A DNA stretch of 64,000 nucleotides from Desulfomonile tiedjei DSM 6799. Lineage in GTDB: Bacteria; Desulfobacterota; Desulfomonilia; Desulfomonilales; Desulfomonilaceae. The stretch covers positions 5,336,001 through 5,400,000 of the forward strand of contig NC_018025.1 in assembly GCF_000266945.1 (NCBI RefSeq), read 5' to 3'. The notes beneath the pieces were generated by a model. It searched no databases and was not told the origin of the DNA. It worked only from the letters and a program-made list of their open reading frames with translations. Numbering within the stretch: the stretch's first letter is position 1; every line of letters starts with the position of its first letter. The position numbers and the translations under genes were made by a program. Below, in pieces: positions 32,766 through 34,915 of the stretch.

Positions 32766-33002
32766 TTACGGTGAATTAGTGATTGCATCCCACTGCCTCA
32801 GCAGGTGCTCTCTGTTATCTCGGATCCATTTTCTTAGTTTCTTCATCTGATTCGGAGGAAGTCCGCCACTCTCGATGCCTAAAGTTTTAATGAAGACTTT
32901 CACTTTTTGACCCTGGTACCAGGCATGGATATGCGGATTACCATGCTCGGATAGCTTAATGCTGATCTCTATCCCTTCGACCTCAGCTATCGTAGGACTC
33001 AT
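32766..33002 (-). CDS. DUF4160 protein
   Basis: This 78-residue protein matches the DUF4160 pattern: SPTIAEVEGIEISI at the start, the central HGNPHIHAWYQ with its conserved histidines near 20-28, and a helical C-terminus LRKWIRDNREHLLRQW. AAAGG precedes the ATG. It is the first gene of a two-gene minus-strand unit with the DUF2442-HU fusion. The family's biochemistry is not known; small size and pairing are the basis for toxin-antitoxin proposals. Confidence 0.88.
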   Translation of the reverse strand: MSPTIAEVEGIEISIKLSEHGNPHIHAWYQGQKVKVFIKTLGIESGGLPPNQMKKLRKWIRDNREHLLRQWDAITNSP

Positions 33003-33253
33003 ATTACCTTTGTTTTAGACACTTTTGGACACTATTCGGTTCGACAAATCTAAACTACGTTGCAAGAGGATACATGGGAGTCTCGAAGAGAGTCACGAAA
33101 AATCTTCTGCCAAGTTACAGAAAGATGCAGTTTGCACCATAGAACTCATTACATTGCATAAATAAATCGGCTGTGCTGCGGCTGTTCGCGCTTGCGAGTT
33201 TCTTGTGGATAACGTAAGATTAAAGAATAATTGACATAAAGGAGCAGCGAATC

Positions 33254-33655
33254 ATGCAGGAATTTGTGATATTAGGTCTATCGCTGGTTATAAGTGTAGG
33301 GGCGGTACTTGCAGCAGTGGCCCAAGACGGGGTGCCGAGGATTTCTAAAGAAGAATTGAGGGCCATGCAGGGAAGCCCGGAGTTGATCATCATCGACGTG
33401 AGGAGCCCAAGGGACTGGGAATCCTCTGACATGAAGATCAGAGGAGCGGTTCGAGAGGATCCAATGAACATTCCGAACTGGATCAGGAAATACCCACCGG
33501 AGAAAATACTCGTTTTTTACTGTGCCTGACCGGAAGAAGCTACAAGCGCTCGTGCAGCGCGAACTTTCATTGAAAACGGTTACGGCAAAGTATACGCTCT
33601 AAGAGGTGGGTGGAACGAATGGGAGGAGACAAAGTATCCCATTGAAAAAAAATGA
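33254..33655 (+). CDS. Exported rhodanese-like selenoprotein (Sec at residue 92)
   Basis: The ATG at 33254 has AAAGGAG at 11 bases. The frame gives an N-terminal export signal (VILGLSLVISVGAVLA, ending VAQ) and a rhodanese domain with IIDVRSPRDWE. It then reads TTT TAC TGT GCC TGA CCG GAA GAA GCT ACA, that is FYCA-U-PEEAT, and continues ARAARTFIENGYGKV..LRGGWNEW to a stop at 33653. The CAUP sequence replaces the CxCP of exported rhodanese-like proteins, and the part after TGA is exactly the conserved rhodanese C-terminus. A hairpin fit for SECIS follows. Total 133 residues with the UGA read as selenocysteine. It probably handles sulfane sulfur or selenium in the periplasm. Selenocysteine genes are not in the window. 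Confidence 0.85.
33546..33560 (+). promoter_or_regulatory. SECIS-like hairpin of the rhodanese gene
   Basis: GCGCT / AGCGC stem with loop CGTGC. The loop begins 21 bases after TGA 33527 and has G at its second position followed by U, as bacterial SECIS elements require. Confidence 0.65.
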
Positions 33656-33673
33656 TCCATGCTCCAGAGGAAA

Positions 33674-33699
33674 TCCTCGCCGAACCGGGTCGGCGAGGA
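33674..33699. terminator. Hairpin between convergent genes
   Basis: TCCTCGCCGA pairs perfectly with TCGGCGAGGA around a 6-base loop, between the selenoprotein gene and the next gene. No long T-run follows, so it may be a barrier or part of a bidirectional terminator. Confidence 0.55.
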
Positions 33700-33704
33700 G
33701 CAAC

Positions 33705-34040
33705 TTATGGATTGCGATGTCCCAGCATGATCATTTTTGATTCAATTGCATCTTCAAGCTTCTGCTCCCACTCTTTCCATTGCAGCCGCAGGTCCTCCAA
33801 CTCGGTTGAAAGTTGTGTGAATTCCGGGAATACTTCGTGAGACGATTCTCCTACTGTGTTTTGCAATGCCTTCATTTTCAAAACCAGCGGTCGAACCTGA
33901 TCTTTGAGTTCACGCATTTTTGCTAAGATGGCTTCTTCCTGACCGGTAACGACCTGGGCCAACCCACAGCCACAGCACTCTTCACCTTCAGCAAAAATAA
34001 ACGTTCCATCCGATTGTTCACCGGGAACTTGTAAACCCAT
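33705..34040 (-). CDS. Hypothetical Cys-containing helical protein
   Basis: The second of two adjacent ATGs (34040) sits 6 bases after GGAGG and is chosen; this gives 111 residues. An N-terminal cysteine cluster (EECCGCG near 21-27) is followed by three amphipathic helices rich in Glu, Lys and Leu. The CCGCG cluster could bind a metal or thiol partner. No family is recognised. It is convergent with the selenoprotein gene, from which a 10-bp stem hairpin separates it. Confidence 0.65.
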   Translation of the reverse strand: MGLQVPGEQSDGTFIFAEGEECCGCGLAQVVTGQEEAILAKMRELKDQVRPLVLKMKALQNTVGESSHEVFPEFTQLSTELEDLRLQWKEWEQKLEDAIESKMIMLGHRNP

Positions 34041-34256: not shown

Positions 34257-34465
34257 AGATGATATTAGAGCGATTACCAAGAATTCTGAGGTCTATCCCA
34301 CGCTTCAATCAGGATATTGGTGGGTGCCGGCGTCCCTGCCAAAGAATGTTCGGACGGTTCTTGCAATTTGAAGAGATTTCGCTCAGACTTGCATTCAGCG
34401 CAAGGTAACGGATATTGTCTGGAGCCTGTGCGGAATGGAATGACTTGAAATGCGAGGAGATTCTC

Positions 34466-34915
34466 TTGAAGTATCTGACTCTTGCAGCCCGCCTGTTTAT
34501 AGGTGCGCTGTTCGTATACGCGAGCATTTACAAGCTGACAAACCCGGCTGAATTTGCCGTGTCTATCCGGAACTATTTGATTGTTCCTCCCGAATGGAGC
34601 AATTTCATTGCCTTGACCCTGCCGTGGGTTGAAATCGCTGCAGGTGTGTTTCTCATTCTTGGGGTGCAAACCAAGCCTTCAGCTCTGTTAACTACGTGTA
34701 TGTTGGGGATCTTTCTGGCTGCCCTCGTGTATGCGTTTTCCATTGGGCTTGATATTGACTGCGGTTGTTTCAGTTCGGGGGGGGCGTCGTCAGGGAAGAT
34801 CGGTCTCTATCATCTCACGCGGGACAGTGCTCTGTTTCTGACGTCGTTGTTCATTCTCTTGGCAGACAAAGGCGATTTCAGCTTACCAAGGTTGACTTCC
34901 GCTCGATCCGCGTGA
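34466..34915 (+). CDS. MauE/DoxX-family redox-associated membrane protein
   Basis: A TTG start at 34466, five bases after GAGGAGA, gives 149 residues; an ORF from 34415 would be longer but lacks a binding site. Four hydrophobic segments are present. A paired cysteine motif DCGCF near residue 97, in the MauE region, marks these proteins as partners of thiol-disulfide exchange. MauE/DoxX proteins help assemble or reduce exported redox proteins. A link to the exported rhodanese 1.2 kb away is only suggestive. Confidence 0.78.
   Translation: MKYLTLAARLFIGALFVYASIYKLTNPAEFAVSIRNYLIVPPEWSNFIALTLPWVEIAAGVFLILGVQTKPSALLTTCMLGIFLAALVYAFSIGLDIDCGCFSSGGASSGKIGLYHLTRDSALFLTSLFILLADKGDFSLPRLTSARSA

Follow-up and report, generated by a model that had tools for sequence, protein, structure and literature searches.

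A probable selenocysteine rhodanese of the NF041203 family in Desulfomonile tiedjei DSM 6799

The window, a stretch of 64,000 nucleotides from the genome of D. tiedjei DSM 6799, contains a gene whose reading frame runs through an internal TGA (Table 1). The gene stands alone, with no recognisable operon around it. From the start ATG at 33254 the translated product reads MQEFVILG...ILVFYCA-U-PEEATSARAARTF...YPIEKK, with the motif FYCAUPEEAT around the TGA. An earlier interpretation made from the letters alone (the sequence-only reading) held that the frame passes the TGA at 33527 and ends at the stop at 33653, and that the conserved rhodanese part continues past the TGA. Translation bears out the former; the latter is confirmed by a Pfam Rhodanese match (PF00581, E 6.4e-14) to residues 32-125. 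Because this match spans the TGA on both sides, the two flanks belong to a single domain. Standard ORF calling was said to cut the protein to 91 residues, and calling here gave the same result. The protein is likely to be exported, judging by eye from its hydrophobic N-terminus and an AxA-like site, and it begins MQEF, without the customary Lys/Arg found there in many relatives. Of 47 loci from relatives, 11 (L056, L057, L058, L060, L061, L062, L065, L068 and others) have a permease-like gene just 5' in the same orientation; the single example scanned matched PF13520.

Table 1. Features at the rhodanese locus (positions in the window)
Feature	Position	Strand	Remarks
Upstream neighbours: DUF2442/HU protein, MBL-fold protein		-	
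AAGGAG, probable ribosome-binding site	33239..33244	+	9 nt 5' of ATG; sequence inspection
Selenocysteine rhodanese gene	33254..33655	+	133 residues including Sec92, plus stop
Probable N-terminal hydrophobic export signal, residues 1-~25, with AVAQDG	33254..33328	+	by eye; extent inferred; low-confidence model region
TGT, Cys90	33521..33523	+	after strand 85-89; Cys/Sec in nearly all related domains
TGA, selenocysteine 92 (codon 92)	33527..33529	+	translation, family alignment
SECIS hairpin, very likely	33546..33560	+	stem 33546-33550/33556-33560, loop CGUGC 33551-33555; comparison
Terminating TGA	33653..33655	+	translation; most relatives end here or within few residues
Downstream neighbour: gene without assignment		-	
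Downstream neighbour: MauE/DoxX membrane protein	34415-34912		3' of rhodanese gene

Compared with the NCBIfam profiles, the protein scores 172.2 bits against NF041203 (rhodanese_LYCAU, titled "rhodanese-related (seleno)protein"), well over the curated cut-off of 115 bits, and aligns with profile positions 4-126 of 126. The score, the near full-length match and the Y-C-x-U motif with its TGA-encoded Sec are all as expected for a member of this family, which exceeds the cut-off in 61 of the 395 genomes of the phylum. Our search of 198 genomes (its own and those of relatives) gave some 40 relatives. Their identity is about 35-55%, and the majority contain one or two in-frame TGA codons.

To see what occupies the position of the TGA, we aligned 102 distinct related domains from the phylum. 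Among the 102 are some that score under the NF041203 cut-off and were picked partly for having no TGA. In all, 80 of the 102 have TGA in this column; the remainder mostly carry Cys, Ser or Ala. By motif, the domains divide into C-x-U (69), U-x-U (11), C-x-S (8), C-x-C (6) and a few others. The proposal that the TGA corresponds to the second Cys of a CxCP motif agrees with the alignment, which has Cys in that column in the six C-x-C domains. Apart from the first U of U-x-U, none of the 80 Sec domains has a further in-frame TGA inside the aligned domain, and one of the 80 has another kind of stop. On a tree in which few forks are firmly resolved, there are approximately eight changes at the Sec column and seven at the first Cys column. 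The related-locus search gave no viral relatives and a single distant betaproteobacterial Cys homologue, with the motif YCACPEEA (L026). In one further locus a Sec rhodanese domain ends an apparent membrane protein (L054:1501-1875), and the betaproteobacterial homologue is arranged similarly.

Insertion of selenocysteine in bacteria requires a hairpin soon after the UGA, with a small loop and a G near the start of that loop; the sequence GCGCT-CGTGC-AGCGC has this form. A SECIS-type hairpin with its loop 21 bases past the TGA had been claimed, and the position is exact. A search of 33000-34000 against Rfam yielded no RNA family, even with E allowed up to 1, and for this reason the hairpin was tested by a custom comparison. 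Free-energy z-scores of the single sequence were uninformative as a SECIS test: the fold of the window hairpin alone does not surpass that of shuffles (z 0.53), and 7% of synonymous recodings match it. The relatives are a different matter. Measured against synonymous recodings, the hairpins of 80 Sec sequences are the stronger, with a mean z of -1.49 (s.e.m. 0.10); the mean z of 20 non-Sec sequences is -0.04 +/- 0.18. The hairpin starts at the same place in nearly all Sec sequences, its loop 21 or 22 nt past the UGA; most relatives that lack the TGA also lack the hairpin.

Covariation was assessed in 75 different TGA-containing relatives (positions 0-based from the base after the UGA). Pair 17:29 is T-A in 43 and C-G in 29 of them, and links the third positions of a Ser codon and an Ala codon. 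It is paired in 99% of sequences compared to 77% in shuffles, and none of 1000 shuffles is as high, although the 75 sequences share descent and such counts are consequently not probabilities. Pair 20:26, again two third codon positions, is T-A in the window gene and C-G in 73 sequences. All 75 have a G at loop position 22. Given the common descent of the sequences, the argument rests on the contrast with non-Sec relatives and on the location of the changes at synonymous sites. Since TGA-containing relatives keep the place of the hairpin, its compensatory synonymous changes and an invariant loop G, and most TGA-less relatives have no hairpin, 33546-33560 is very likely a real bacterial SECIS. 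The comparison thus adds covariation evidence for the SECIS of a gene that ordinary ORF calling shortens, and confirms the gene itself.

These data bear directly on the possibility that the locus is a pseudogene, or contains a sequencing error, the TGA being either a genuine nonsense codon or a Cys codon that was misread. That ORF callers stop at the TGA is the one point in its favor. Since 80 related domains from many genera share this TGA, with a conserved domain 3' of it and a covarying hairpin, we consider this explanation exceedingly improbable.

The genome (6.53 Mb, two contigs, 99.99% complete) encodes the full set of selenocysteine genes: profile searches found selA (599 bits), selD (367.6 bits) and two copies of selB over the cut-off (404 and 291 bits), and a tRNA-Sec with anticodon UCA scores 69.5 bits. 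Absence of all such genes, which the sequence-only reading had named as refuting it, can accordingly be dismissed. The selD gene (L018, genome 3873142-3874065) has an in-frame TGA of its own at the usual Sec/Cys position, in the motif SGUASKIGPG. Across the phylum, selA is present in 59 of the 61 genomes with an NF041203 match over the cut-off (table count); this says little about NF041203 proteins, because selA is also present in 355 of the 395 genomes overall.

Directly 5' of the second selB (L011:1501-1592 and L002, genome 3562734-3564838) lies a Sec-like tRNA with the Cys anticodon GCA, an arrangement that resembles the selC*/selB* pair of Syntrophobacterales (PMC7609411). It raises the question of whether a second Sec-like system, a selC*-type tRNA-Cys plus the second selB, inserts cysteine at the UGA, the more so as some Desulfobacterales have selC*-type tRNAs with a UCA anticodon (PMC7609411). 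The Sec-like tRNA here, however, has the anticodon GCA, which reads UGC/UGU, and the genome has a canonical tRNA-Sec(UCA), selA and selD; cysteine insertion is accordingly very unlikely. The presence of TGA in 80 domains and of Cys in several, a covarying SECIS and complete Sec machinery together provide strong support for selenocysteine in the active-site loop. We put the probability that the protein is a selenoprotein and a member of NF041203 at about 0.95.

The part played by Sec92 is less certain. An AlphaFold model shows, with confidence, a rhodanese domain (mean pLDDT 89.6, the N-terminal 25 residues being low), which Foldseek matches to 135 PDB entries at E <= 0.001, rhodaneses. In the model, Tyr89 is the last residue of a strand; after it comes Cys90, and the following helix starts at 96. 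One reading has Sec92, and not Cys90, as the rhodanese nucleophile: the loop would be an ordinary one of six residues, U-P-E-E-A-T, with Cys90 at the strand end, and the enzyme a selenium-boosted sulfurtransferase. HMMER places Sec92 on the catalytic Cys of 6mxv without a gap, and, counted by eye, the later GY and GG motifs stand as far from Sec92 as they do from the catalytic Cys of GlpE and of 6mxv. Against this, the model strand ends right before Cys90, and hhalign pairs Cys90 with Cys65 of GlpE, leaving a two-residue insertion. Moreover, only one of the 102 domains has a residue other than Cys or Sec in column 90, some domains have Ser, Ala or another residue in column 92, and nearly all Sec-less relatives keep C90 (C-x-S, C-x-A); in L022, a paralogue with a long loop from the same genome (YCYGPECD), the Cys likewise stands where C90 does. 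A nucleophilic Sec92 is thus the less probable arrangement, and its adoption would leave the identity of the residue as Sec unaffected. We regard it as more likely that Cys90 is the canonical nucleophile and Sec92 its redox partner. Sec92 lies two residues past Cys90, and the loop probably has two extra residues, which suggests a C-x-U redox pair. The claim that Sec occupies the active site therefore stands as regards the loop, but the more conserved C90 is probably the nucleophile.

On this basis a mechanism may be proposed. The UGA at codon 92 would be decoded by tRNA-Sec(UCA), with SelB held by the SECIS just 3' in the coding sequence, as the conserved sequence and the machinery imply. The product would be a small single-domain rhodanese, probably exported, with Cys90 right after the central strand, at the nucleophile place of ordinary rhodaneses, and Sec92 in the probably longer loop. 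One residue of the pair would accept a disulfide or sulfane sulfur, the latter from polysulfide, thiosulfate or a persulfide; its partner would then resolve this to a selenenylsulfide, to be re-reduced by a periplasmic thiol system. We give this C-x-U redox mechanism an even chance. As far as we can infer, the protein most likely serves redox chemistry of sulfane sulfur or disulfides in the periplasm.

In eleven relatives the motif is U-x-U (L040, L047, L063, L067, L071, L085, L091, L100, L102, L108, L123); in these Y-U-x-U relatives the two Sec codons are six bases apart, with apparently one hairpin for both. Tentatively, the Cys/Sec pair may have become double-Sec several times, and the protein may accordingly work by a selenenylsulfide/diselenide redox cycle and not as a sulfurtransferase. 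Such variants are suited to asking what selenium adds to the rhodanese fold.

The sequence-only reading had described a less common class of selenoprotein. That description is reasonable, but the family itself is not new to the catalogues: a 2026 review (PMC13188914), citing the 2005 bSECISearch paper, has rhodanese-like form 3 as NF041203, CxU, with TKB26178.1 as example. The window protein agrees with NF041203 in its near full-length match, C-x-U motif and size, with no notable difference. It is one more member of a known family, ordinary for a selenium-using bacterium, and the gene's own record may be annotated as such. The U-x-U form shown by some relatives in the phylum has no entry that we found in the part of the review's table available (PMC13188914), and within that scope is the only aspect for which we found no description. 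NF041203 appears to be a widespread, probably exported selenoenzyme family in the phylum, and our literature search found no description of its biochemistry. Among other known rhodaneses, the single-domain GlpE type (E. coli, PDB 1gmx) shares the fold but, unlike the window protein, has a six-residue loop, one Cys and no Sec. The ChrE rhodanese (NF033833) is the second best NCBIfam match; at 43.6 bits, far under the cut-off of 120, membership was rejected. TsoB (NF045694, UxxxxU) is likewise a long-loop rhodanese domain with Sec. The same genome encodes one, a rhodanese/DsbD fusion (L024:1381-3371; FYUAGLTU, two TGA, 1011 bits to NF045694), and of the 22 genomes whose TsoB match exceeds the cut-off, 9 have NF041203 as well, compared to 61 of 395 overall (a table count, shared ancestry uncontrolled). 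TsoB differs from the window protein in being fused to a DsbD-like membrane part and a thioredoxin part, and in having two Sec residues five residues apart.
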